A stretch of DNA of 39,893 nucleotides from Bacteroidales bacterium (GTDB lineage: Bacteria; Bacteroidota; Bacteroidia; Bacteroidales; UBA932): the NCBI GenBank assembly GCA_029010575.1, contig JAQXKS010000061.1, positions 84,580 to 124,472 of the forward strand, written 5' to 3'. The notes under the pieces were generated by a model. That model ran no database searches, was not told the origin of the DNA, and saw only the letters and a program-made list of their open reading frames with translations. Positions within the stretch are counted from its first letter, which is position 1. Each line of letters begins with the position of its first letter. Positions 3,167 to 38,913 of this stretch are shown here, in pieces. Position numbers and translations under genes: made by a program.

Positions 3167-3533
3167 TGAATATAAAATTTCTTGCCCAAAAATCAGATCT
3201 AATTTTGGGGCCTCCGGAAAAAATTGGGATTGCAATATTAAGCGTTTTTATAGGGCCATAATGGAATTTTTGAGTGAATGGTAAGCTGGAGGGCGAAAAA
3301 TGCGATATTTGCCTTATATTATAGAGGTATGTTAATGTAGGCTTCCCAGAAAATTCAATTTAATAATAAAGGCCGGGAAAAATTTTGGGAATCGAATATA
3401 TCAAAATTAATGGGTGGCTGGAAGGGATTTTGTGGCTTGGTTCACTTTTGAGAAAACGAGATTGAAAATTTCGGCCCGACTATATTTATGGTATTCGCAC
3501 CAGACTGACCACCCACCTCGCCATTTTTGCAAC
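3167..3533. other. AT-rich gene-free stretch
   Basis: About 370 bases without a credible gene. Short imperfect direct similarities occur, for example GGAAAAAATTGGGATTG near 3216 and GGGAAAAATTTTGGGAATCG near 3376. Beyond that I see no strong hairpin, tRNA or promoter on the plus strand. Confidence 0.5.
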
Positions 3534-4068
3534 TTAACTACCTGTTACACAGGTAGTTAATCAGGTTCACTTTCCGCAAAAGTGAACCAGCCTCGCCTCG
3601 TGGACACGCGAAACGCCTCCACACGCCCACTTGCAGAACTCCCGCCCTAAAAAGCCAATTTATTGGCTTTTTTCACGCGAATAAGTTCCCCACCTGCCAC
3701 CCAACTTGCGTAGGTGCAAAAACTCGCCCGCGACATTCGTGTGTGGGCTTTGCCTTGTGCGTGATGTTGTGCGTGAGTTTCGCGTGGACAAGGCTGGGCT
3801 TGCACACCCAAGGCCACGGACAGGCGAACTTCGTGCGGACGCTCAGGACAGTGCGTGTGATTTTCCTGGGCGCGGGGGTGTTTTTGGCTACGCCAAAAAG
3901 GTGCGTGACGCTCGCCCTAAACAGGCGTGACTGACGGGCCGTAGCGTTGCGAAGTTGCCCCCAACTTTGCATCGGCAATCAGCCAACGACCGACCTCGGC
4001 GGTTGTAACGAAGTTACAAGCAAGCAAGTTCCGAGGGCTTGTTTGCAAAGCAAACAAAATCTCGCATT
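3534..4068. repeat. gene-free leader with perfect inverted repeats
   Basis: Upstream of the gene at 4069. It contains a 12-bp perfect inverted repeat with 3-nt spacer (3534-3560), a 10-bp repeat with 5-nt spacer (3564-3588), an 11-bp A/T-flanked hairpin (3649-3672), an 8-bp repeat with spacer TAC (3881-3899), a 6-bp repeat with spacer CCCC (3952-3967), a 7-bp repeat with spacer GAA (4003-4019) and an 8-bp repeat with spacer AAA (4039-4057). Arm sequences are unrelated; the compact geometry is shared and continues into the gene. Confidence 0.75.
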
Positions 4069-17308: not shown

Positions 17309-17923
17309 ATGCGTATGAAACAGAAATTCAACATCGAAGTACCGTTATTTCCAGGTTATTATGAATCCTGGCTGTATTCTTCAGATGATGACTACTATGA
17401 AGTCGAAGAAGAAATCAGGTATTACCAGGAAGAGTACGGCAAGAAACTCACTCAGGATGATTTTGAGCTTGACTTTAAGCGTTATTGTGAGGATATGAAC
17501 GAGGCATTTGTGAAAGCATTTATGGATGTTGCTCCAGACTTTGTGCTTTCAGCAAAATACACCAATATGGTCTCGCCGTCATACTACAATTATAGTACGG
17601 ACAGAATATACGCTGATGTCAAGTTCGCCCCTAATTGGCAGCGTGAAATGAAAAAATTCATTGCCGAGAATGAAGAATGGTTGGCAAAGAAGATTCACGA
17701 TGACTGGACATCTCGTAGTGGTTTCATTTCATTTATTGCGAACTATGCCGAAGATTTCTATGAAAAGTTGTTCACAGAGATGGACGAAACCTACATTCAC
17801 ATTATGCTCTCCTATATGTTGGTGCGCAGTAACCCTGACATTGAAGCACACCTTGCTCTGGATTGCAGAGATAAGGTTCCTATGTATGAATACATTCACC
17901 TTAAAGAATCAGTGCAATTATGA
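17309..17923 (+). CDS. acidic aromatic-rich hypothetical protein, 204 residues
   Basis: Starts MRMKQKFNIEVPLFPGYYES; a second Met two codons later could be the real start. Acidic, Tyr-rich, with SPSYYNYSTDRIYADVKF in the middle, a phrase I associate with phage-borne hypothetical proteins without known function. Its stop overlaps the start of the DGR-type variable protein (ATGA), so the two are probably co-translated. Confidence 0.6.
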   Translation: MRMKQKFNIEVPLFPGYYESWLYSSDDDYYEVEEEIRYYQEEYGKKLTQDDFELDFKRYCEDMNEAFVKAFMDVAPDFVLSAKYTNMVSPSYYNYSTDRIYADVKFAPNWQREMKKFIAENEEWLAKKIHDDWTSRSGFISFIANYAEDFYEKLFTEMDETYIHIMLSYMLVRSNPDIEAHLALDCRDKVPMYEYIHLKESVQL

Positions 17924-18420
17924 CACAAGCAGAACTCACATTTTTTGAGATGGTTCCCAGAGCATTGAGAGACATTGCTTCGGAACTCCACAAACTCAAC
18001 GAAAACAAACCCGCCCAGGTTGAAAAAGAACCTGAGACAAAAGAAACCCCGGCTACGAAAGACTACGGAAAACTTTATTGGGATGAAAACCGTAAAGCCG
18101 TGTTCGTTCCTATTATCAATAAGTTCCTCGATGCCAAGAATTTATGCGAGGAAGAGAAGAGCTGGTATGATGCGATGGAACTTGCCAAGAAGAACGGCAA
18201 AGAACTCCCTTCCAGAAAGGAAATGCTTATTCTCGCCTACTTCGAAGATGAAATTAATTCTATCCTTGAAGCAAACGGTGGTGACAAACTGGATGGATGG
18301 TATTGGGCCTCCTCGGAGTCCAACTCCAACATCGCGTGGACCATGAACTTCAGCAATGGTTACTTGTACACCTACTTCAAGTACCTCGACATCTATGTGA
18401 GGGCAGTCGCGGCCATTTAG
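17920..18420 (+). CDS. DGR-type variable protein with C-type-lectin/FGE-like C-terminus
   Basis: 166 residues. Residues 1-27 form an amphipathic helix, 30-48 a Pro/Glu/Lys linker, and 50-166 a domain whose end (YWASSESNSNIAW, then NFSNGY, then YVRAVAAI) matches the C-terminal pattern of DGR target proteins and related FGE/DUF1566-type folds. In DGRs the target is diversified through adenine-specific copying of a template repeat by an RT. Of codons 134-158, 18 of 25 have the form NNC, as expected from AAC template codons. The likely ligand-binding face is therefore this segment. It may instead be a non-diversified relative. Confidence 0.75.
   Translation: MTQAELTFFEMVPRALRDIASELHKLNENKPAQVEKEPETKETPATKDYGKLYWDENRKAVFVPIINKFLDAKNLCEEEKSWYDAMELAKKNGKELPSRKEMLILAYFEDEINSILEANGGDKLDGWYWASSESNSNIAWTMNFSNGYLYTYFKYLDIYVRAVAAI
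18298..18417 (+). other. candidate DGR variable region (VR)
   Basis: The last 40 codons of the preceding protein. Conserved-looking codons (TGG, GCG, ATG, AAG, GTG AGG GCA) alternate with runs of NNC codons, the footprint of adenine mutagenesis from AAC codons. No template repeat with the matching sequence was found by eye in this window, so diversification from a template here is unproven. Confidence 0.55.
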
Positions 18421-19756: not shown

Positions 19757-20426
19757 ATTGGGGGAAATAATACTTCCCAACAGAATCAAAATAACGGATC
19801 CCGGCTATTTCCCAGAAGAATGGTGCTGCAATGAAGCAAATATTCTTCCTGGCATTTATAAATGTGAAGCCATTCAAAAACACTGTGGTAATTGGGGCAA
19901 TCGCATTTCCGAGTTGCGTATTCAGCATATCGATTATCCAGATGTTATATGTATGGAAAGTTTTCCTTGGTCTGTGGGAGTTGATTCCGGGCAGGCGGGG
20001 TTCTTCGATGCTGAAGATTACGAAAATAATAGCAAAAGCGAAGAGTGGTATTCGAAAGTCTGCGAAATCACCTTGCATGAGCCTGATTGTGGTAGCGTCA
20101 ATGGTATTGGCGTAGTAGCATCAAGCGGTTATGGTGACGGTGCTTACGAATGTATATATGGGACAGATTGCAGCGGTAATGTTGTTGCCCTTCAGTTGAT
20201 TTTTATTAATGAATCAGTGGAGGTTGGTGACATTGTTAAGTGGTACGATCCAGCCCTCAATGACTATCCCGAAGAGGAACGCGAGTTGGCTAAGAATCGC
20301 CGTTTCAAAGTGGTTGGTGTTAATGGAGAGGTTGTTCTCATCCAGGAAATTGATGAGAATGGTGAAATTGATCTTCAGGGCACCGAGGCAGAAGTCTTTG
20401 ATAGTGAACTTGAAATAATTGAATAA
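19743..20426 (+). CDS. DUF4241-like protein
   Basis: From ATG 19743 it encodes 227 residues. The features ITDPGYF near the start, VDSGQAGFFD in the middle and ASSGYGDGAYECIYGTD followed by GNVVALQLIFI match my memory of the DUF4241 family, whose biochemical role is unknown. About 60 extra residues at the C-terminus (VGDIVKWYDP onward) look like an added small beta domain. It ends one base before the RT start codon, so the two are probably co-expressed. Confidence 0.7.
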   Translation: MKTIELGEIILPNRIKITDPGYFPEEWCCNEANILPGIYKCEAIQKHCGNWGNRISELRIQHIDYPDVICMESFPWSVGVDSGQAGFFDAEDYENNSKSEEWYSKVCEITLHEPDCGSVNGIGVVASSGYGDGAYECIYGTDCSGNVVALQLIFINESVEVGDIVKWYDPALNDYPEEERELAKNRRFKVVGVNGEVVLIQEIDENGEIDLQGTEAEVFDSELEIIE

Positions 20427-20427
20427 T

Positions 20428-21693
20428 ATGGAAGACAAAATTCTTCAAATGTTCTTCGAACCTGAGCGATGGAAGTATGCCATTAGTAAGGGTATTGTTA
20501 AGGACATACGCAAAGACCAGCTGTATCAGTTGGCAAAACCGGAAGTGCGTATTAATATCTATCAGGCAATGATGGAGGGCCGTTATCGCATTTCACCTCC
20601 GCATACGGCCAAGATTCCGAAAGACACTCCTGGTGAATTCAGGACGGTATATGTGAATGAACCTATTGACAGGGTTGTTCTCAGTATTGCAAACGACCTT
20701 CTATTTGAACTTATGCCTGAGATGATTCATCCTCGCTGTAAATCCTATCAAAAGGGTATTGGTTGTGGCAAGGTTGTTCAGGAAGTCAGCACCAAGATAT
20801 GTCAGACGAAAGGTAAATGTATTGGCTGGAAGTCCGACCTCAGCAAATACTTCGACTCAGTGCCTCTTCGCTACATTGATGAGGTATTTGATAAGGTTGA
20901 AGCAAAGTATGGCAAATCTGTATTGATAGATGTTATTCGTGACTATTATCACACAGACATCTACTTTGGCGAACACGATCAGCTACAAGAAAGTTATCAG
21001 TCATTGAAACAAGGTTGTGCAGTTGCAGCCTTCCTTGCTGACGCAGTTCTTTACCAACTGGATGAAAAGATGTCGCAGTTTAAGGGGGAATATATCAGGT
21101 ATTCTGATGACTGCCTATATATCGGAGAAGATTATGAGGCGGCAATGAACTGTATGTCTGAAGAACTGGGAAGGATGGAAATGAAACTTAATCCGAAGAA
21201 AGTTGAATATCTGTCAAAGGACAGGTGGTTCAAGTTTCTTGGCTATTCTATCAAGGGTTCTGACATTTCCCTTTCAGTCACTCGCATCAAGAAATTTCAG
21301 AAGGAGATTGAGATGCGTACAATAAAACAGCGAGGAATATCCCTCGATAGGGCCATTCATTTGGTCAATAACTTCTTGTATAAAGGCAATGGCGAGTTCA
21401 GTTGGGCAACGCAGATTCTCCCAATATGTAATGTTCGTAAGGACATCGATACCTTGAACACATTCGTTATGGATTGTTTCAGGGCGGTTGCCACTGGGAA
21501 ACGCAAGATTGGCGGTCTCGGCTATATGGTGAATAAACAGGACGGTTGCATAGCGAGAGGTATTGGAAGAAATGTGAAGGCCAATCGCGCTAAGACAGAA
21601 AAGCTCTTTTCTGGCTATTTAACGCTGGGGTGTATGCAGAATGCAATAAGGACACGCCGGGCCGTTTACAATACTCTTGTATCATCGCTATAA
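20428..21693 (+). CDS. reverse transcriptase of uncertain class
   Basis: 421 residues from ATG 20428; a TTG three codons upstream is possible. RT motifs are clear: R72-x-VYVNEPIDR (motif 1), SDLSKYFDSV with D137 (motif 3/A), LKQGCAVAAF with Q195-G196 (motif 4/B), RYSDDCLYI with Y225-S-D-D228 (motif 5/C) and FKFLGYS at 268-273 (motif 7/D). A helical C-terminal region of about 140 residues follows. It lacks the typical DGR motif-4 sequence (IGNxxSQ), an endonuclease or maturase domain, and a clear retron VTG motif; SVTRIKKF sits near that position. The first structured element starts 20 bases after the stop, so the RT probably acts on that array. Confidence 0.9.
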   Translation: MEDKILQMFFEPERWKYAISKGIVKDIRKDQLYQLAKPEVRINIYQAMMEGRYRISPPHTAKIPKDTPGEFRTVYVNEPIDRVVLSIANDLLFELMPEMIHPRCKSYQKGIGCGKVVQEVSTKICQTKGKCIGWKSDLSKYFDSVPLRYIDEVFDKVEAKYGKSVLIDVIRDYYHTDIYFGEHDQLQESYQSLKQGCAVAAFLADAVLYQLDEKMSQFKGEYIRYSDDCLYIGEDYEAAMNCMSEELGRMEMKLNPKKVEYLSKDRWFKFLGYSIKGSDISLSVTRIKKFQKEIEMRTIKQRGISLDRAIHLVNNFLYKGNGEFSWATQILPICNVRKDIDTLNTFVMDCFRAVATGKRKIGGLGYMVNKQDGCIARGIGRNVKANRAKTEKLFSGYLTLGCMQNAIRTRRAVYNTLVSSL

Positions 21694-21713
21694 TCCATAA
21701 GTCAGCACAGATT

Positions 21714-21915
21714 GATGAATGAAGAATGATGTATTTCAGTGTAACAGCTTTGAACCAGAATCTTGGAGCTGTATCCGGATTTTGTTGAGAGTGTGTTCAC
21801 CCGATGAGTATCGGGTTCCTTACACTTCAAGTCATCCGGATACAGCTCTTGAATTCTGGCAAGCTGTTATTACATCAAGAAGTTAGAGTAATGTGCCAGT
21901 TCATTGACATTCATC
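21714..21915 (+). ncRNA. RT-linked structured element E1
   Basis: Outer stem 21714-21729 with 21901-21915 (GATGAATG, AATGA; internal loop AAG opposite GA). Then TATTTCAG. Inner hairpin 21743-21868: arms of about 37 nt with a second stem ACCCGAT-GAGT-ATCGGGT at the tip. Conserved block 21874-21897: ATCAA, eight bases, AGTAATGTGCC. Immediately downstream of the RT gene. Whether it is transcribed or reverse-transcribed is unknown. Confidence 0.75.
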
Positions 21916-21933
21916 TGGAGCGCACCAACATGT

Positions 21934-22110
21934 CCCAAGGAATTATCTATTTAATTACCCGCGTTAAAGCCAGGCCGTTTAGCACGAGTCATGATTCGCC
22001 TCAGCCCGTGTTAACCCACACAGCTGAAGGCTATCATGACTCGTGCATGCACCGCCTTCTTACGCGGGTATTATCAAAGAAATATAGCAATGCGCCGATA
22101 ATTATGAGGG
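21934..22110 (+). ncRNA. RT-linked structured element E2
   Basis: Outer stem 21934-21947 with 22097-22110 (CCC and AATTATC paired, interrupted by AAGG opposite ATGA). Inner hairpin 21956-22070: ACCCGCGT / ACGCGGGT base, GCACGAGTCATGAT / ATCATGACTCGTGC in the middle and a GCC...AGC tip stem. Block 22073-22096: ATCAA, eight bases, AGCAATGCGCC. Confidence 0.75.
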
Positions 22111-22130
22111 AAGACTTAGCACAGGGAAAT

Positions 22131-22281
22131 GGTCAAGGTTGGGAAATTTTATTAAACAGTGTCTTATGACGACAGATTCAGACTTTGGCTGGTTTATCTA
22201 CCAGCCCCCTTCTGAATCTTTCGTCAAAGAACCACTGTTTTACATCAATCAGATAGAGGAATGTGCCAACCCAACGAGACC
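22131..22281 (+). ncRNA. RT-linked structured element E3
   Basis: Outer stem 22131-22143 with 22270-22281 (GGTC, GTTGGG; loop AAG opposite GA). Inner hairpin 22153-22241: AAACAGTG / CACTGTTT base, AGATTCAGA / TCTGAATCT middle, GGCTGGT / ACCAGCC tip. Block 22244-22267: ATCAA, eight bases, AGGAATGTGCC. Confidence 0.75.
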
Positions 22282-22302
22282 AAGGGAAATGCGGCCCTTA
22301 GC

Positions 22303-22432
22303 TGCATAAGTAAGCCTCCGTTCAATTTGCCGGATTCCATTTGCCGCGTCCCAGCTCCTATCCGAGCTACACGCGGCAATTCATCCGGCAACTATCGAAT
22401 CCATATAGACACGCATCAAGGCTTTGAGTGCA
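22303..22432 (+). ncRNA. RT-linked structured element E4
   Basis: Outer stem 22303-22317 with 22418-22432 (TGCA and AAGCCT paired, interrupted by about four bases). Inner hairpin 22327-22391: TTGCCGGAT / ATCCGGCAA, TTGCCGCGT / ACGCGGCAA and GCTC / GAGC at the tip. Block 22394-22417: ATCGA, eight bases, AGACACGCATC. Last element of the first array; the next gene starts 15 bases later. Confidence 0.75.
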
Positions 22433-22446
22433 TAAATGAAAAGACA

Positions 22447-22902
22447 ATGAAAAATATATTCAATGAATCAATCGCAATGGTCGAAGACGGAGCCAGATTC
22501 AAAATTGGCTTCGTTGACCGTACCCTGAAAATTAACGGGAAACTCGTCATAAACAATGGTGAGTTTGAGGGCGAATCGGGCCTTCCCGCTGAATTAACCG
22601 AGAATGTTCTGGAATCAATAGAAAACATGTACTTCCAGTACAAACACTCGATCCCATCTGAAAGAAGCGAATCCAAACGCTTCCGGTATTTTAAGGCTCT
22701 TCCAGAACACGAACTGGAAGATGAGGATATGCTTTATGGCGAGAGTAGAGATGTGGCCCAGATCAGACTGGAGCTGTTCGTTCTTCTGTGTGCTATTGAG
22801 AACAAACTGGTGTGGGATGAGCAGAGAATGGGAAAATGGTTCTGGCAATCCACCACCGACAAAGACCTGGTAATACTTCGTAACTGGGTAGAGAAAAATT
22901 AA
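22447..22902 (+). CDS. hypothetical protein between the two arrays
   Basis: From ATG 22447 it encodes 151 residues (MKNIFNESIAMVEDGARFKIG). An upstream in-frame ATG at 22261 would read through elements E3-E4 and is rejected. The second half (SERSESKRFRYFKALPEHEL, DEDMLYGESRDVAQIRLE, GKWFWQSTTDKDLVILRNW) reads like a hypothetical protein I recall on many Bacteroidetes mobile elements, function unknown. Its position inside the array makes it a candidate partner of the RT system, or simply a gene inserted between the two blocks. Confidence 0.65.
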   Translation: MKNIFNESIAMVEDGARFKIGFVDRTLKINGKLVINNGEFEGESGLPAELTENVLESIENMYFQYKHSIPSERSESKRFRYFKALPEHELEDEDMLYGESRDVAQIRLELFVLLCAIENKLVWDEQRMGKWFWQSTTDKDLVILRNWVEKN

Positions 22903-22939
22903 CAACAATAAATAATCAACAATTCAAAATTTTTCAATT

Positions 22940-24052
22940 ATGAAAGAGACAAAAGTTATTTGCCCCGTATGCGGCACTGAAATCGCAATCGCAGAACACA
23001 CTCACACCGTCAAGAACGCTGTGGTAATCGGTAAGGATAGCAACTTGGGAACCGTTGTGCTTCCAGCTGCAAAGGCAGGTCAGGCTCCTGTAACCACCCC
23101 TGTATCTGGCAAGGTAGCAGGTCTTCCCAATAAGGCCGAAGACCGTTTGGAGGCTCTGAAGAAGGCTGGCATCGATACCGCCAATCTCTTCGCAATGCGT
23201 GGAGCAAGCGGTGAGGGTATGCTCGTGCGCCTCGTCAATGGTGTTCCTCAGATGGTGAATGACAACGATCCTATCTTCCGTGACATTATCGCAGCCGGTA
23301 CTATTCCTGATCGCCGACTGTTCAGACGCTGGGTAATGTCTCAGATGTTTCACATGCTGACCTACAAGGGTTATCGCGGGGCTGATGGATACACCGCCGC
23401 CCTTCACGCCAAGGGGTACGAGTATCAGTGGAGTATGACGCTGGAAGAACTTCGTGTTCAGGCCAAGCTCGCTAAGAACGATGCAGAGAACTTCAACGAG
23501 CGTAATCGTTGGTTCGACAAGAGGGTTTGCATCGCCCTCATCGATGACTACTACCAGAAGCTCCAGAAGCATGTAGCATCCCTCAAAGTCAAGCGTTGCA
23601 AGGGCGTGCCGTATGTTTCAATCCACCATCGCAACATCTTCGTGGCAGATCTGGAAGCCAAGCTGTATCGCCCTCTGATCTGTGCAAAGCAGGGCGTAAT
23701 TGGGGCAAAGACTCCTGACCAGCTATTCCGTGCGATGTCCAAATATAATGCTCTTCGGGATACATTGAGCTGGGATACTCCTCAGTGCAGGGAGTGGGTG
23801 GATGCCTTCAAGGGTTCCGGTGCGTTCTTTACCTTGAAGAACCTCATACTCTTCCACAATTGCGTCCTCCGTGATGCGTATGGAAGGAAGATGAGTAAGA
23901 ACAAATCCTTAGAATTTCTCACCCGTGCGTCAATTGAGTATAAGAACGAGGGCTGGAGGCTCCTCGCAATGCTGAAGAAGGCTATCAATGACAATGGCAT
24001 CAACATTGAAGCTAAGATGGAGGAATGGTCTAACGCCAAGCGTAACCGATAG
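22940..24052 (+). CDS. 370-residue protein with N-terminal Cys/His motif, between the arrays
   Basis: Begins MKETKVICPVCGTEIAIAEH: C-x2-C followed by H-x-H, a likely zinc knuckle. A Ala/Pro/Val linker (residues 35-65) leads to a basic, mostly helical region to the end. The AT-rich leader (AACAACAATAAATAATCAAC) and strongly biased codons suggest high expression. It may bind the structured RNAs or their DNA copies, judging only from its basic character and location. No family recognised, and no catalytic motif seen. Confidence 0.7.
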   Translation: MKETKVICPVCGTEIAIAEHTHTVKNAVVIGKDSNLGTVVLPAAKAGQAPVTTPVSGKVAGLPNKAEDRLEALKKAGIDTANLFAMRGASGEGMLVRLVNGVPQMVNDNDPIFRDIIAAGTIPDRRLFRRWVMSQMFHMLTYKGYRGADGYTAALHAKGYEYQWSMTLEELRVQAKLAKNDAENFNERNRWFDKRVCIALIDDYYQKLQKHVASLKVKRCKGVPYVSIHHRNIFVADLEAKLYRPLICAKQGVIGAKTPDQLFRAMSKYNALRDTLSWDTPQCREWVDAFKGSGAFFTLKNLILFHNCVLRDAYGRKMSKNKSLEFLTRASIEYKNEGWRLLAMLKKAINDNGINIEAKMEEWSNAKRNR

Positions 24053-24076
24053 GTCTGTAATCCGTATGCGGAACAT

Positions 24077-24212
24077 ACGCAATGGGCTGGAATACTTTTA
24101 GTAAGCTGCAAGAATGAAGGCGGCCCGTACATTGACCAGATGTAGGGCCAGCCTTCGGATGTTGCAGCTTATCATCGAACAACTAAAGTAACGCACCATC
24201 CAGTAATTGCGT
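24077..24212 (+). ncRNA. RT-linked structured element E5
   Basis: Outer stem 24077-24091 with 24199-24212 (ACGCAAT, CTGGA; loop GGG opposite TA). Then ACTTTTAG. Inner hairpin 24102-24171: TAAGCTGCAA / TTGCAGCTTA base, GAAGGC / GCCTTC and CCCGTACAT / ATGTAGGG inside. Block 24174-24197: ATCGA, eight bases, AGTAACGCACC. First element of the second array, 25 bases after the preceding stop. Confidence 0.75.
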
Positions 24213-24220
24213 AGCGAAAC

Positions 24221-24359
24221 CGATATGATGGACTGGAAAGAATTTAGAAGATCACCCTCTATGCAGGTGCTGCCCGTCTTATCTTACGGGCTACACCTGC
24301 AAAACGGTGATTCTCTGCATCATGCCGTTACAGATACGCACCCTCCAGTAATTATATCG
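24221..24359 (+). ncRNA. RT-linked structured element E6
   Basis: Outer stem 24221-24237 with 24344-24359 (CGATAT, ACTGGA; loop GATGG opposite AATT). Then AATTTAG. Inner hairpin about 24248-24313: TCACC / GGTGA base, GCAGGTG / CACCTGC, CCCGT / ACGGG tip. Block 24319-24342: ATCAT, eight bases, AGATACGCACC. Confidence 0.75.
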
Positions 24360-24368
24360 AATGCAGAT

Positions 24369-24505
24369 GAATATAGTGGATTGGAAACTGTTTACGCTGA
24401 TGGCCTCATCACGCCGGTTCCACTGTGATTACAGCATGGCACCGGCGTGCAAGGCCATCTTCTGATCAAGCCCTTAGAGTTATGCGCCCTCCAATATCTA
24501 TATTC
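24369..24505 (+). ncRNA. RT-linked structured element E7
   Basis: Outer stem 24369-24385 with 24490-24505 (GAATATAG and ATTGGA paired around a tiny loop). Inner hairpin 24399-24459: GATGGCCT / AGGCCATC, ACGCCGGT / ACCGGCGT, CTGT-GATT-ACAG tip. Block 24465-24488: ATCAA, eight bases, AGTTATGCGCC. Confidence 0.75.
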
Positions 24506-24524
24506 ACGGCAATGCAGCCATCCA

Positions 24525-24679
24525 GCTTTCAAGAGATTAATATTTCAGTGCCGGACGCTGTAACTCCAGGGAGGTAAGGAACCTGACCAGTTTATCCACT
24601 GGTAAGGAACGCTTTCCTCCCTGGAGAAGCGTCCAGAACATCGGAGCATTAAAGATACGCATCATAATCATGAGAAAGC
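24525..24679 (+). ncRNA. RT-linked structured element E8
   Basis: Outer stem 24525-24540 with 24664-24679 (GCTTTC and ATTA paired; AAGAG opposite CATGA). Then TATTTCAG. Inner hairpin 24553-24634: GGACGC / GCGTCC, CTCCAGGGAGG / CCTCCCTGGAG and ACCAGT / ACTGGT at the tip. Block 24640-24663: ATCGG, eight bases, AGATACGCATC. Confidence 0.75.
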
Positions 24680-24702
24680 AAAAACTGGGAGCGCACCCAT
24701 TT

Positions 24703-24854
24703 CGTTTCAAAAAGATTGCCCTTCAGTGAGCGATCTACAGACTCCTGTAAGACAGAAGCGCATCGATGTATCTATCGATTTCTCTTCTGTCTTACAGGTT
24801 CCAGATCACTCTTCATCGGTCAAATATAGTAACGCGCTAAATCTTTGAGAAACG
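24703..24854 (+). ncRNA. RT-linked structured element E9
   Basis: Outer stem 24703-24717 with 24840-24854 (CGTTTC, AAAGATT; loop AA opposite GA). Then CCTTCAG. Inner hairpin 24725-24810: CCTGTAAGACAGAAG / CTTCTGTCTTACAGG as a 15-bp core with ATCGAT-GTATCT-ATCGAT at the tip. Block 24815-24838: ATCGG, eight bases, AGTAACGCGCT. Confidence 0.75.
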
Positions 24855-24875
24855 CCACGGTAACACAAACCAAGC

Positions 24876-25008
24876 TCTTTGAGTGGAGGAATCTTTAGGT
24901 CAACATCTCTTGTAACTCAGGATCCTCATCCTCTATCGTTGGATGAGGATCCTGACCAGAGATGCTAACATCGAAGGAATATAGCAATGTGTCGGCCTCC
25001 AGAAAAGA
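24876..25008 (+). ncRNA. RT-linked structured element E10
   Basis: Outer stem 24876-24889 with 24996-25008 (TCTTT, TGGAGG; loop GAG opposite GA). Then TCTTTAGG. Inner hairpin 24904-24964: CATCTCT / AGAGATG base and CAGGATCCTCATCC / GGATGAGGATCCTG core. Block 24970-24993: ATCGA, eight bases, AGCAATGTGTC. Last element; the next gene follows 35 bases later. Confidence 0.75.
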
Positions 25009-25043
25009 CTTTTATTAATAAAAATATCATTGAAAATGGACTA

Positions 25044-25364
25044 ATGCCTTATAAGAGTGAACGAGTTCGTATCGCTGGCACTCAGTACGACCTCAGAAGG
25101 AAACTGACTGACGATCAAATCCGGGCGGTTTCCATATTAAGTGCCCAAGGTTACAGTCAGCGTGATTTAGCAAAGATGTTCGGATGCTCCAAGGGAACTA
25201 TCCAAAACATCCTCAATCCCTGTCCCAGAGGCCCGCAGATAAAGCGAGACAAAGAATACTGGACGGAGGCCAAGAGACGCTATCGTACAAGGAAGCAATC
25301 ATTATACAAATCCGGTGTGCTGGAACCGAAGCGTATCACAAAACGCAAATCGAAAGTCTTATGA
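25044..25364 (+). CDS. helix-turn-helix DNA-binding protein
   Basis: From ATG 25044 it encodes 106 residues. Residues 25-52 (RAVSILSAQGYSQRDLAKMF then GCSKGTIQNIL) are a resolvase/Hin-type helix-turn-helix. The C-terminus is very basic (KRRYRTRKQ; KRITKRKSK). An earlier ATG at 24987 lies inside the conserved block and outer stem of element E10, so the downstream start is preferred, though an overlap could be regulatory. It could regulate the RT array or bind its DNA. It overlaps the next gene in an ATGA. Confidence 0.7.
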   Translation: MPYKSERVRIAGTQYDLRRKLTDDQIRAVSILSAQGYSQRDLAKMFGCSKGTIQNILNPCPRGPQIKRDKEYWTEAKRRYRTRKQSLYKSGVLEPKRITKRKSKVL

Positions 25365-35045: not shown

Positions 35046-36446
35046 TCATAACTTGAATCCTCTACTTTTTCTTGGCTCTTCTGTTTTTCGTAAACCTTGC
35101 CGAAGTTTCTCCCATTGTTCTTTGAACCATTCGCCAATCGGTTGCCTGTTTATGTTCAGTACCAGTTTACTGTCATTGGTCGGATTCTTTTCCACTTTGA
35201 AAATATCATTCCTGATGTCAAACTTCCGTCTGTGCTCTTCGGAATAAATCCTGCCATTGCACCTGATAGCCTCTTTCTTCGTCAGAAGGCTCTCTATCAT
35301 TTCTTTGGTGAAGCCGATGGCTGCGCACAGTTTCTCCATTCTCAGCATCTCCCTGAGCATCGGGAACCATTTGAAAGCCTTTTCAAGAATAGCATTCAGC
35401 CGTGATATTTCCTTGTCTTTGGCTTCAAGTTCTTGATGGTGCATCCCTTGCAGATTGCGTATCTGTTTGCCGTGCTGTTCCTGCATGTGCCGCATTTGGG
35501 CTTTCAAGTCATCAATTCCCTTATCCCGTTTGGCAATTTCCTGACGCAGTTCATCATTGGACTGCTCCAGCTTCTTCATTTTCCCGCTGCCGAAAAGAGA
35601 ACCCACTCCGCTTACTATGACCGTAGCAGCATCGGTGGCTGCACCTTTGAGCTTGTCCGTGCGTATCTCCGATTTCACCTGACGAAGTTCCTGTTCGGCA
35701 AGATTTATCTGTTCTTCTTTGTGCCGTTTTGCAGCATCCATGCGTTGCAATTCGGCTTTCTGCTTCTCAATGATGAAGTCGTTCCTCTCCAGATGCTCCT
35801 TGCCTGTTACAGCCTTTGACTGTCCACGTTCCATCAGCAGGATGTCGGATGCCAAGTTTTGCATTTCGGTCATATCCTCATCATTGAGTTTGCGGCTCTT
35901 GCCTGTATCGTGGTTCATCCAGTCGAATACGATATGGGCATGGTAATTCGGCTTGAACCATCTTTCGCCTACTTGAAAACTCTCCCTGTCCTCCGGTGCA
36001 GGCTGACCGTTCAGCCAATGCCCCTCGTCTTTGTGCAAGAAGATTTGAAGCGGAGTGATACCCCATCGTTTTTGGCACTCCTCGCCAAACCTACGCACAT
36101 CCTCCAGTGTCGTGTCCGGTCTGATAAGCAATACTCCCTCACGGATGGGTGAGCATCCCGCCACCTTGATAATCTTGCCGTTCTTCCCTTTGCGTTCACG
36201 CTCCTTTTCCTGCATGGCACGTCCTGTCTTTTCCTTGACCATGCGTTTGATGTTCTCATAATGCGTCTGCAATTCGGGACTTCCGAAATCCGGATTTATC
36301 CACTGCTCGTTGCTTGCAGAGAGTTCCGATACCACATATACTTTGGACTTGCCGATGTTGCGCATATACTCGGCTGTTCTCCGGTTATGAGCCTCGCTTG
36401 ATGCCACGTTGCAAGGTTTGATATGTATGCTTGACTTTGTTGCCAT
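35046..36446 (-). CDS. MobV-family relaxase
   Basis: 466 residues. N-terminal relaxase domain: EAHNRRTAEYMRN near the start, then FLHKDEGHWLNG and WFKPNYHAHIVFDW with the conserved H-x-D-E and H-x-H of the MobV (Pre/Mob) type. Residues 215-380 form a long coiled coil. It nicks and covalently binds the oriT strand for transfer by a helper conjugation system; the element itself shows no transfer apparatus. A probable oriT lies upstream at 36447-36671. Relatives are the Mob proteins of Tn4555 and NBU elements. Confidence 0.9.
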   Translation of the reverse strand: MATKSSIHIKPCNVASSEAHNRRTAEYMRNIGKSKVYVVSELSASNEQWINPDFGSPELQTHYENIKRMVKEKTGRAMQEKERERKGKNGKIIKVAGCSPIREGVLLIRPDTTLEDVRRFGEECQKRWGITPLQIFLHKDEGHWLNGQPAPEDRESFQVGERWFKPNYHAHIVFDWMNHDTGKSRKLNDEDMTEMQNLASDILLMERGQSKAVTGKEHLERNDFIIEKQKAELQRMDAAKRHKEEQINLAEQELRQVKSEIRTDKLKGAATDAATVIVSGVGSLFGSGKMKKLEQSNDELRQEIAKRDKGIDDLKAQMRHMQEQHGKQIRNLQGMHHQELEAKDKEISRLNAILEKAFKWFPMLREMLRMEKLCAAIGFTKEMIESLLTKKEAIRCNGRIYSEEHRRKFDIRNDIFKVEKNPTNDSKLVLNINRQPIGEWFKEQWEKLRQGLRKTEEPRKSRGFKL

Positions 36447-36671
36447 CTTTTCGATTTTTGATTCGGTTTTTGACTAATTTTGTTTGTTGCTTTCCGCTCA
36501 TAACGCAGGGGGTTCTTAGGGGTGAAACCCATAAGCGGAGTTTCCAAAGAGAGGGTCACTCTTTGGTCGGGTTGCATAGGGCTGAAAGCCCTTGCCGGGT
36601 TCTTAGGGCAGCGTCCTAAGCCCCTCGGGAGAGCCCACAACTACGAAAGCGAAGCGTGTAGTTATAGTGGG
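36447..36671 (-). other. probable oriT region
   Basis: Gene-free and packed with inverted repeats: CCGCTCATAACGC...ATAAGCGG (about 36496-36537), AGGGCTGAAAGCCCT near 36578, CTTAGGGCAGCGTCCTAAG near 36602, and AGCCCAC...AACTAC paired with GTAGTTATAGTGGGCT (about 36630-36671). It lies directly upstream of the relaxase gene on its strand, where oriT of MobV elements is usually found. The nick site cannot be identified by eye. Confidence 0.6.
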
Positions 36672-37631
36672 CTATAACCGGAAGCCTTTCGGTTTCTTGG
36701 GTAACGCATCATTCCTCTTTTTGACGAATTGCATTTGCTCTTTTCTATCCGCCATGCGTTTCTGCAAATACTCGTTCAGGTCTTTGCATCCGCTGTAGAT
36801 TTGTGAAGCGTCCCGTATATGCCGGGTGCTGTCGTATTCCTTGCGGATTTGCTGAAGGGCTTCCATTCCTGCACGGTCATTGTCAAAAAAGCAGTGGATG
36901 CGCTCATAACTTCCCAACGGGTAGAGTGCTTTGGAAACATTGGCAACAGAGTTCAGAACCATGTAATCCTGCCTGTCGAATTCAGGGTATTGCGGACAAC
37001 TTTCGAGCCGTAGGGTCAGAAATGAGAGGTAGTCCATAAATCCCTCGAAAACGAAACACGTGCCCTTTGGCTCTCCCGACTGTCTGATGTGGGATATTTC
37101 CTTCGGTGCGATACAGCCCTTGAAATATCGGTTGCGGATTTCATAGCCGCCCGACATGTTGGGAAACGCAATGGCGAAGTACCGTTTGCCGTTGTGCGTA
37201 AACCGCGCTTCCTTACATTCTTTTTTCGCCAGTGCCGGATTTATTCCCCTTTCCTGCAAGTAAGCGAGCAAGGCAGGAGAAGAAAGCGGCACGATTTCCA
37301 ACTGTTGGAAACTCGGCTCTGTAAATGACTGCTTGCGAAAAGAGAAAGAAACGGGGCGCACGTGCGCTGCCTGTTCCTCTATGCGTTTCAAAAGGCACGG
37401 CACGCTGTCCGTTGCATAGAGGTGCGAAGCCAGAGCGATGATGTTGCCGCCCTTGCCGAGCGCAAAATCATACCATTGGTTCCGCTCGGTGTTCACCTTG
37501 AACGAGGCTTCGGTTTCTTCCCTGAACGGTGACTTGTACCACAGGTTGATGCCCTGTCGCTTCACCGGGCTATATCCCAAGCTGTGCAGGTATTCTTCCA
37601 GTCTGATTTGTTTTGCTGTCTGTATGTCCAT
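36672..37631 (-). CDS. Toprim-domain primase (NBU PrmN1-like)
   Basis: 319 residues. The N-terminus (EEYLHSLGYSPVKRQGINLW then YKSPFREETEASFKVN) is CHC2-like but lacks the zinc-binding Cys residues. The Toprim core follows: FEGFMDYLSFL with Glu, and HCFFDNDRAG with D-x-D. Makes primers for replication or complementary-strand synthesis after transfer. Order mob, primase, ATPase on one strand is typical of NBU/Tn4555-type elements. Confidence 0.85.
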   Translation of the reverse strand: MDIQTAKQIRLEEYLHSLGYSPVKRQGINLWYKSPFREETEASFKVNTERNQWYDFALGKGGNIIALASHLYATDSVPCLLKRIEEQAAHVRPVSFSFRKQSFTEPSFQQLEIVPLSSPALLAYLQERGINPALAKKECKEARFTHNGKRYFAIAFPNMSGGYEIRNRYFKGCIAPKEISHIRQSGEPKGTCFVFEGFMDYLSFLTLRLESCPQYPEFDRQDYMVLNSVANVSKALYPLGSYERIHCFFDNDRAGMEALQQIRKEYDSTRHIRDASQIYSGCKDLNEYLQKRMADRKEQMQFVKKRNDALPKKPKGFRL

Positions 37632-37703
37632 AAATGATTGTCTTTATCGGTTATTGTTTGTTTTTCTTTTCGCCAGTATCTGTTTATAGGTTACTGGCTG
37701 TAT

Positions 37704-37830
37704 AACCACTTCACTTTATTGTCGTATATATAGGATACGGCTTAAAGTGAAGCGGTTTGATGCGCTCCTGCAACCACTTCGCTTTATCCTAATATATAGA
37801 CCCGGAGAATAAAGTGAAGTGATTGCAGGA
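37704..37830. repeat. two related inverted repeats (iteron-like)
   Basis: Repeat 1: AACCACTTCACTTTA (37704-37718) with TAAAGTGAAGCGGTT (37743-37757). Repeat 2: TCCTGCAACCACTTCGCTTTAT (37766-37787, given in two parts as TCCTGCA and ACCACTTCGCTTTAT) with its complement at 37809-37830. All four arms share ACCACTTCRCTTTA, and both loops contain ATATATAG. Lying between ATPase and primase genes, they may be protein-binding sites for replication or excision control, or RNA hairpins. Confidence 0.65.
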
Positions 37831-37836
37831 AGCGTG

Positions 37837-38913
37837 TCAATAGTGGAAATCCGGTTCGTATCTGTACTTCCTGCCATTTTCCTGCACTATCATCCGCTTG
37901 TTCTTCAACACTGTGATGAGCTTAACCAGCTTGTTGTCGCTTAACGGAACACCTACCAATGCATACGATTCTTTCAGCGCTTTGCCCAGTTCCTTATACC
38001 CGTACTCGTCCTGCAACGAGAATGCGGCTTCCAGTGCTATCCGGTGCTGTTGCTCGGAAATGTCCTTGCAGGCATCAAACCTTTCACCTTGGGGTCTGCC
38101 GGGTGCTTTGGTTTCTGTCTGGTAGTCCTCCATCAGTTCAGGCAATGCCCTGTCATTGATGCGGAAGGCAAACGGCTCGAAGTCCATCGCACGGATGTGC
38201 ATGGCGGAAACCTTGCTGATGTCCCCGTTGCTCTTGTCCTTTTCAACGAGCAGCACGGTTTCAGCCTTGTTGTTCAGTTCCGTGCCGATATGTCCCCTTG
38301 CGTTCTCATCCCCCTTGTTCTGGTGGAGTATCGTATGGATATGTATCTGCCTGTCGTCCGTCCACTGCATCAGTTTCGATATGATGCGTGTCGATTCGCT
38401 GGGGCTGTTGATGTCATACACCATGTCACGGATGCCGTCTATCACCACCATACCGAGGTTCGGTGTATGGTAGATTGCCTGTTCGACAATCCTTATGCGT
38501 TGCTCCGGCGTATATTTCCGCAGGGCAAGGAACTCAAGGTTCTCGTTGTCCCTGTCATCGGGCAGCCCTGCCATGCGCATGATGCGTTCCATCACATTCA
38601 GGCAGTGGTGGGGGCTTTGCTCCGTATCGACATACAGCACTTTCCGCTTGGCTTCGGGAAGTTCAGCCGCATACCTGAGCACCGTGCCGTTCTTCAAAGC
38701 CGCAGCCACGATAGCCGACACATTGAATGTTTTCTTGCTTTTGGCTTTGCCGATGGATGCACTGAAATTTCCCAACGTGCCGATTACAGAACCTTTCACG
38801 CTGAGGATTTCTGGCGCTTTCTCGTATTTTCCCGACAGGCTAAGCCGTGAGGCTTGCCAGAGGATTACCGCCTGTTCGTCCGATATTTCCCGGATGTCTT
38901 TCATATAGTCCAT
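37837..38913 (-). CDS. RepA/AAA_25-like ATPase
   Basis: 358 residues with a RecA-like core. IGKAKSKKTFNVSAIVAAAL is a variant Walker A (G-K-x-K-S-K-K-T), VVIDGIRDMVYDI is Walker B, and TILHQNKGDENARGHIGTEL is a switch-like segment typical of RepA-type hexameric helicases. The C-terminal 70 residues look like a winged helix. Probably loads or unwinds DNA at the element's replication origin or during excision. The primase gene follows on the same strand. Confidence 0.8.
   Translation of the reverse strand: MDYMKDIREISDEQAVILWQASRLSLSGKYEKAPEILSVKGSVIGTLGNFSASIGKAKSKKTFNVSAIVAAALKNGTVLRYAAELPEAKRKVLYVDTEQSPHHCLNVMERIMRMAGLPDDRDNENLEFLALRKYTPEQRIRIVEQAIYHTPNLGMVVIDGIRDMVYDINSPSESTRIISKLMQWTDDRQIHIHTILHQNKGDENARGHIGTELNNKAETVLLVEKDKSNGDISKVSAMHIRAMDFEPFAFRINDRALPELMEDYQTETKAPGRPQGERFDACKDISEQQHRIALEAAFSLQDEYGYKELGKALKESYALVGVPLSDNKLVKLITVLKNKRMIVQENGRKYRYEPDFHY

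Follow-up and report, generated by a model that had tools for sequence, protein, structure and literature searches.

A tandem array of pseudoknotted RNA units beside a UG27 reverse transcriptase in a Bacteroidales contig

Genes and RNA units at the UG27 locus

We analyzed a window of 39,893 nucleotides from a Bacteroidales bacterium (positions 84580-124472 of contig JAQXKS010000061.1, G000:C61:84580-124472 in our numbering of genomes and contigs; the assembly is 87% complete), in which a reverse transcriptase (RT) gene of the UG27 group is accompanied by ten structured elements, E1-E10, and by the accessory genes RTas346 and RTas337. The contig encodes a terminase 63% identical to that of Bacteroides phage BS-TP1 and a tape-measure protein 46% identical to its BS-TP1 counterpart across the first 563 residues, and because of these two resemblances it is read as a prophage or phage contig related to BS-TP1. 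The order along the locus is RT, E1-E4, RTas346, RTas337, E5-E10, with units occupying the gaps between the operon genes (E1-E4 from RT to RTas346, E5-E10 3' of RTas337). In the following list, P4 denotes the long inner hairpin of a unit, block the conserved stretch beyond it, bits the score under a covariance model (CM) of the units, and z the folding of P4 relative to 200 dinucleotide shuffles.

20419..21693, + strand, UG27-type reverse transcriptase, 424 aa, YSDD motif (PADLOC RT_UG27, E = 2.2e-223)
21704..21916, + strand, pseudoknotted RNA unit E1 (P4 21741-21870, block from 21874; 51.4 bits, E = 1.8e-8; z -11.1)
21919..22115, + strand, unit E2 (P4 21956-22070, block from 22073; 63.8 bits; z -10.2)
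22118..22286, + strand, unit E3 (P4 22154-22240, block from 22244; 73.1 bits, itself a model sequence; z -11.0)
22288..22436, + strand, unit E4 (P4 22327-22391, block from 22394; 43.7 bits; z -7.9)
22447..22902, + strand, RTas346 accessory protein (RTas346, E = 1.4e-62, residues 64-213 of a longer reading frame)
22940..24052, + strand, RTas337 accessory protein (RTas337, E = 4.1e-131)
24063..24216, + strand, unit E5 (P4 24101-24172, block from 24174; 33.3 bits; z -7.5)
about 24208..24359 (by eye), + strand, unit E6 (P4 24245-24317, block from 24319; missed by the CM; z -8.7)
about 24360..24505 (by eye), + strand, unit E7 (P4 24399-24459, block from 24465; missed by the CM; P1 imperfect; z -6.9)
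24511..24682, + strand, unit E8 (P4 24553-24634, block from 24640; 48.3 bits; z -8.0)
24690..24857, + strand, unit E9 (P4 24728-24811, block from 24815; 32.2 bits; z -8.0)
24862..25012, + strand, unit E10 (P4 24904-24964, block from 24970; 36.2 bits; z -8.1)

All ten elements reported in the initial annotation, made from the sequence of the window, were present, with the inner hairpins where it had placed them, and the P4 of each (10/10) folded better than every one of its 200 shuffles (z -6.9 to -11.1). The element limits that it gave were shifted by the CM (for example, E1 now spans 21704-21916), and under the model-derived limits hardly any sequence separates one unit from the next, the 5' end of E6 overlapping the 3' stem of E5. 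The CM recovered 8 of the 10 units with E-values below 1e-4, including E3, which was among the 44 sequences used to build it; E6 and E7 were missed, although block, P2, P3 and P4 are visible there by inspection.

The structural plan of a unit was first seen by folding the window and six related loci and was then refined. From 5' to 3' it comprises P1 (5 nt), a spacer, P2, AAG or AAGG, P3, TTYA, P4, ATCR-N6-TANAG-NNA, P1', about 2 nt, P3', TGA and P2'. The outer stem that had been described is thus present, and is actually made of two helices (P2 and P3) flanking a small internal loop (5' AAG/AAGG, 3' TGA). The 24-nt block that had been described corresponds to ATCR-N6-TANAG-NNA plus one half of a helix that had been overlooked, in which P1 pairs with the block end and crosses P2/P3 to form a 5-bp pseudoknot. 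The 5' strand of P1 keeps the order purine-pyrimidine-purine-pyrimidine-purine in 146 of 150 aligned units though its bases vary (columns 2-6/264-268 of alignment A5, described below). P4 is a long hairpin unique to each unit, often with three stacked sub-helices separated by internal loops; its tip carries the word TAYC, a possible contact motif, in 76 of 233 units compared with 25 in shuffles, and palindromic 6-mers are rarer in P4 than in shuffles (156 vs 242), which do not preserve the hairpin.

At gathering score, a search of the window against Rfam returned two tRNAs outside the array and nothing else; the best match in the array region (E = 0.29) scored 23.3 bits against a gathering score of 70. 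The initial annotation had named no described RNA or DNA element family with this plan. In agreement with it, neither such a family nor a paper on UG27 function or on such an array was found among the literature matches listed, which does not prove absence from print; the papers containing the term UG27 in the literature searched were all unrelated by title.

The UG groups were reportedly defined by Mestre et al. in 2022. The match of the window RT to RT_UG27 spans profile positions 1-420, and both the UG27 group assignment and the association with RTas346 and RTas337 were found at this locus. The other PADLOC profiles matched far less strongly (UG26, 1.1e-34; UG17, 1.5e-25; Drt9, 4.9e-25; Drt2, 4.9e-10; the retron profile RT_Ec107-like, 9.3e-9). 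RTas346 and RTas337, already catalogued by PADLOC as RT-associated families, occur in 71/71 and 69/71 UG27 loci, respectively. RTas337 consists of an N-terminal CPVCG zinc-ribbon-like part and a mostly helical body (AlphaFold2 mean pLDDT 85.1, body confident), and a fold comparison with 987 chains gave nothing informative among the matches listed. Two listed open reading frames begin inside units: that of RTas346 (22261-22902) starts inside E3, the start at 22447 matching orthologues and probably being the real one, and that of a helix-turn-helix protein (24987-25364) starts inside E10, its true start probably being a later ATG.

Covariation, coding strand and linkage to UG27

We collected units from 69 UG27 loci with a strict block pattern, which gave 232 forward and 4 reverse matches; 226 of the forward ones lay no more than 4 kb 3' of the RT. 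We obtained 248 de-duplicated units from 55 loci, or 233 from 52 loci after hairpin filters. We then compared the duplex energies of cognate arms with those formed with the arms of other units. For P4, the energies were -31.9 and -18.3 kcal/mol, respectively (248 units), and the separation was good, in that 81% of cognate energies per unit were lower than the best 5% of those with non-cognate arms. For P2/P3, they were -17.2 and -10.0 kcal/mol (233 units), with a moderate separation (45%). When the unit's own block was used, the 62 nt upstream contained an exact P1 complement in 193/233 units, compared with 20/233 with the block of another unit.

Covariation was evaluated on alignment A5, which contains 150 CM matches (146 distinct) and was fitted to P2, P3 and P4, and so favors these helices, but not to P1. 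The covariation score was 0.753; shuffles gave 0.210 (sd 0.007), and slid structures did not exceed 0.16. Of the cells, 82.1% were paired, compared with 50.9% in shuffles. By helix, the paired fraction was 99% for P1, 91% for P2, 65% for P3 (the last two pairs being mostly open) and 78% for the P4 base. The number of pairs with both-sided changes was close to that of shuffles (460 of 500 as high), and the number of further pair types differed little from them (12 of 500 as high), because nearly every pair varies. The 44 model units had been picked for exact P1, so that P1 counts on alignment A2 are biased and were left unused; in the rows outside the model set, P1, whose pairs are absent from the model, showed 5/5 pairs in 107 of 114 rows, 4 pairs in 6 and no pair in a single gap row, whereas shuffled partners gave 5/5 pairs in 46.6% and 4 in 32.8%. 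These results bear out the initial proposal that selection on structure, and not recent duplication alone, underlies the likeness of the copies, since pairing persists through changes on both sides.

Among 108 isolated mismatches in P4 stems, G.T (27) exceeded A.C (9), as expected if the folded strand is the RT transcript strand and selection acts on the coding-strand RNA. The covariance model R1 detected 272 units (E ≤ 0.01) in 58 of 68 UG27 loci, every one of them on the coding strand. These 68 loci were hand-chosen to skip repeats, and near-duplicates remain in the locus set (e.g. L007/L017). Loci without a match at this threshold were L008, L093, L109, L111, L112, L115, L116, L124, L128 and L130, of which L008, L093, L109, L124 and L128 gave weaker matches (E 0.006-0.09) in a smaller search. 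The best 150 matches were distributed over 48 loci, and in 22 of these loci the first match of this set began 2-24 nt past the RT stop codon. The possibility that the units are DNA-level hairpin recombination sites, similar to integron attC, would fit a structure that is kept as sequence varies; however, the G.T bias marks the RT transcript strand, all 272 matches lie on the coding strand, and no gene cassettes or cassette reading frames separate the units in the window, so that we consider it the least probable of the alternatives. The units lie on the coding strand and either separate operon genes or follow them, which would also suit cis-acting elements of the operon mRNA, such as processing or attenuation sites. 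Simple attenuation, however, needs neither up to ten near end-to-end copies nor a pseudoknot and block conserved in addition to the hairpin, and in the window P4 is not directly followed by a U-run; a cis-acting role is accordingly regarded as very improbable.

Since the UG27 loci had been gathered by way of their RT, the independent test of linkage was a search of 393 Bacteroidales genomes, with scoring limited to 7 candidates per genome. Four genomes were matched by the CM at E ≤ 0.01. Three of them (G000, the source of the window, G025 and G356) are exactly those with a UG27 RT at E < 1e-200, the next best RT being at 1.5e-40; the fourth match (G002) is weak (32 bits, with P2 unpaired in the alignment). 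The hits are therefore linked to the RT, which the initial annotation had named as a check on its proposal. There were zero CM matches in 30 loci of other RTs, whose flanks were short. At L029, which has a UG26-like RT, strong hairpins are located downstream of the gene (2751-2931 and 3531-3691), where the UG27 model has no match; they are perhaps a separate RNA of that RT, and the hairpin scan used there is unspecific in that it also gives signals in coding DNA.

The system also occurs in isolated phage BS-TP1 (L131, PQ571274.1), in which gp79 is the UG27 RT, gp80 is RTas346 and gp82 is RTas337. Seven of its units reach E ≤ 0.01, and a smaller search gave an eighth at E = 0.0076. In the phage record, gp79 is annotated as a tail protein and is called an RT in its note alone. 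A UG27 RT was also found in one faecal phage scaffold. RT matches in plasmids were remote (less than 24% identity among the best 15 of 626) and most were labelled as group II intron type. The data establish a single conserved pseudoknotted plan, its linkage to UG27 loci, selection on the RNA of the coding strand and a distinct P4 hairpin per unit. The best reading of the array is a set of tandem small noncoding RNA (ncRNA) genes of a phage-borne UG27 system composed of RT, RTas346, RTas337 and the array, and we assign a probability of about 0.95 to the statement that the units form a structured RNA family belonging to UG27.

Variation and targets of the P4 hairpins

In the close locus pairs listed, most units could be matched to an orthologue according to position; the stems, which had been called unrelated, are so between the copies of the window, but orthologous copies in related loci share stem sequence. 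When seven pairs were compared, the divergence of P4 tips exceeded that of RT fourfold sites in three (in one barely) and was below it in four. Between L004 and L006, P4 tips differed by 12.5% and P4 bases by 7.5%, compared with 49% at RT fourfold sites. Because the tips differ less than these sites, the divergences indicate that either the P4 sequence is constrained or the array was exchanged recently. Between L068 and L069, the tips differed by 24.6% compared with 12% at RT fourfold sites, and in elements 2 and 3 the tip was replaced on both arms in nearly unchanged units. The same was observed in the last element of L083 and L125, in which the tip was replaced on both arms, with the unit almost unchanged and the flanking unit identical. 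Recombination between phages may be behind the divergence of P4 tips. A wholesale replacement of elements between relatives was considered and rejected; several low similarities had come from the calling of hairpin starts.

Stems that differ among copies and tips swapped on both arms (the last element of L083/L125, and L068/L069) would be compatible with a sequence memory in which P4 stems are copied from targets in a spacer-like manner. We searched the array against phages (best E = 0.3), plasmids (no match) and the rest of its own genome in the 87% complete assembly (best E = 0.06 outside the array). A wider query matched two phage records, in both cases via coding genes, according to coordinates and protein searches. 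Two 16-mer P4 arms occurred in 3 and 28 stretches of viral contigs, and an exact tip pattern in 2. P4 12-mers in common with the own locus numbered 33, compared with 21.6 expected from other loci (66 loci), and 10 of the 33 came from one locus. Targeting of self or host by P4 was rejected, as no target was found in phages, plasmids or the own genome, and because orthologous units moreover recur by position in related loci, a sequence memory is highly improbable. CRISPR and guide arrays are tandem units with a constant scaffold and a variable part, and the UG27 array is also built in this manner; however, its variable part is self-paired, its scaffold stems covary, and no targets were found.

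A few further features of the contig and the assembly were recorded. The gene at 17920-18420 encodes a DUF1566/Lcl_C protein, the variable C-terminus of which is the target of a remote diversity-generating retroelement (DGR) located at 48194-49954 of the same contig (G000:C61:48194-49954), with the template repeat at C61:49106-49220 and 13 of 15 differences at template A. The UG27 RT as the DGR acting on this gene was rejected, because no second copy of the variable region was found in 19 loci tested and because the template repeat, at a distance of about 54 kb, adjoins a separate RT. DUF1566 homologues are present in 18/71 UG27 loci, and those of L004 and L017 differ by 15 nt, all within the last 110 nt. 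The assembly contains two more RT genes (G000:C33:45878-46696 and C13:2012-2587). Minus-strand genes at 35046-38913 of the window encode mobilization protein-like, Toprim primase-like and RepA-like ATPase-like products (the support for a relaxase is weak) and are perhaps a mobilizable element beside the phage part.

The units as candidate RNA cofactors or templates

DRT2 uses a pseudoknotted ncRNA whose template has a stem on its 5' side and the pseudoknot on its 3' side (PMC12039810), and ncRNA-templated cDNA synthesis is described for DRT10 (UG17) and DRT9 (UG28) in PMC12632851 and PMC12483538. A structured ncRNA linked to the RT, one mark of such ncRNA-templated defense RT systems (DRT2, DRT9 and DRT10), was found for UG27. 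The likeness to DRT2 (UG2) lies in an RT with an adjoining pseudoknotted RNA and in the position of P4 between stem and pseudoknot, where DRT2 has its template. However, the available text describes one RNA per DRT2 system (PMC12039810), whereas a UG27 array can contain ten, with a separate hairpin in every one; the RT similarity is weak (Drt2, E = 4.9e-10), and UG27 has two extra genes. DRT10 and DRT9 provide the nearest profiles to the UG27 RT after UG26, but these systems have a SLATT partner and a single ncRNA in the portions available (PMC12632851, PMC12483538), in contrast to RTas346, RTas337 and an array in UG27. In a scan confined to the conserved single strand of UG27, no A-B-A' pattern like that of DRT10 was seen, 4-nt repeats in ATCR-N6-TANAG being found in 47/188 cases, compared with 41.4 expected; nor was a conserved poly-U seen in this strand. 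No support was obtained for a telomerase-like addition of repeats from N6, for N6 pairing with the upstream part or with the P4 tip, or for template jumping via flanking repeats; one of ten N6 pairing comparisons (10 vs 1 of 199) vanished at 200 draws (10 vs a mean of 7.5).

By analogy with DRT2, DRT9 and DRT10, we propose an RT-RNA system with many scaffolds and with P4 in the template position. The units would be transcribed with the RT operon and then cut apart, and the RT would hold each RNA via the pseudoknot and two conserved single strands, TTYA and ATCR-N6-TANAG. P4 would occupy the template position of DRT2 and telomerase RNA, 3' of a stem and 5' of the pseudoknot, and because of this position the RT would copy it, yielding a set of different self-complementary hairpin cDNAs with which RTas346 and RTas337 would act. 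The most likely use would be to defend the lysogen from rival phages, in the manner of related Class 2 RTs. We consider it probable that the units are an RNA cofactor or template of the RT. A function as RNA template taken as a whole is, by this analogy, somewhat favored; that the system serves defense stands at even odds, and that P4 itself is the template falls a little short of them.

An RNA cofactor that is never copied would leave the RT in need of the pseudoknot, while P4 acts as RNA, for example as a decoy, a guide or a protein-binding stem. The strong structure of P4, often with stacked sub-helices, the enrichment of TAYC at its tip, and the conservation of orthologous P4 beyond neutral in some pairs all agree with this possibility. 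However, Class 2 relatives of this RT copy a segment of their own RNA (PMC12632851, PMC12483538, PMC12039810), and the lack of any P4 target in phages, plasmids and the own genome argues against a guide; we therefore regard the cofactor-only role as unlikely. Each unit might instead give rise to a branched RNA-DNA hairpin molecule, as in a retron with many msd. In the msr-msd plan of retrons, paired ends enclose a long hairpin, free in sequence, next to the RT, and the UG27 units share this plan, with an outer inverted repeat around such a hairpin adjoining the RT; RTs named retron-type are also among the weaker matches. The RT nevertheless belongs to UG27 and not to a retron group (9.3e-9 for RT_Ec107-like vs 2.2e-223), the 5-bp pseudoknot crosses the outer stem, and the copies are in tandem, which makes a retron-like mechanism improbable.

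Several UG-group RTs have proved to synthesize unusual DNAs, each from a single ncRNA. For UG27, the recurrence of the array in related viruses suggests that a single enzyme works with an entire set of different RNAs. We tentatively extend the template reading, at clearly less than even odds, to a phage RT that would use multiplexed RNA templates, each unit giving a different hairpin DNA, so that a small library of self-complementary DNAs, each with a separate task, would evolve by tip swapping while the RT-binding scaffold stays fixed. If this reading is true, the UG27 array would be the first multiplexed RT-ncRNA system known to us. The array gives an entry to the function of UG27, and the covariance model together with the isolated phage BS-TP1 makes it directly testable.

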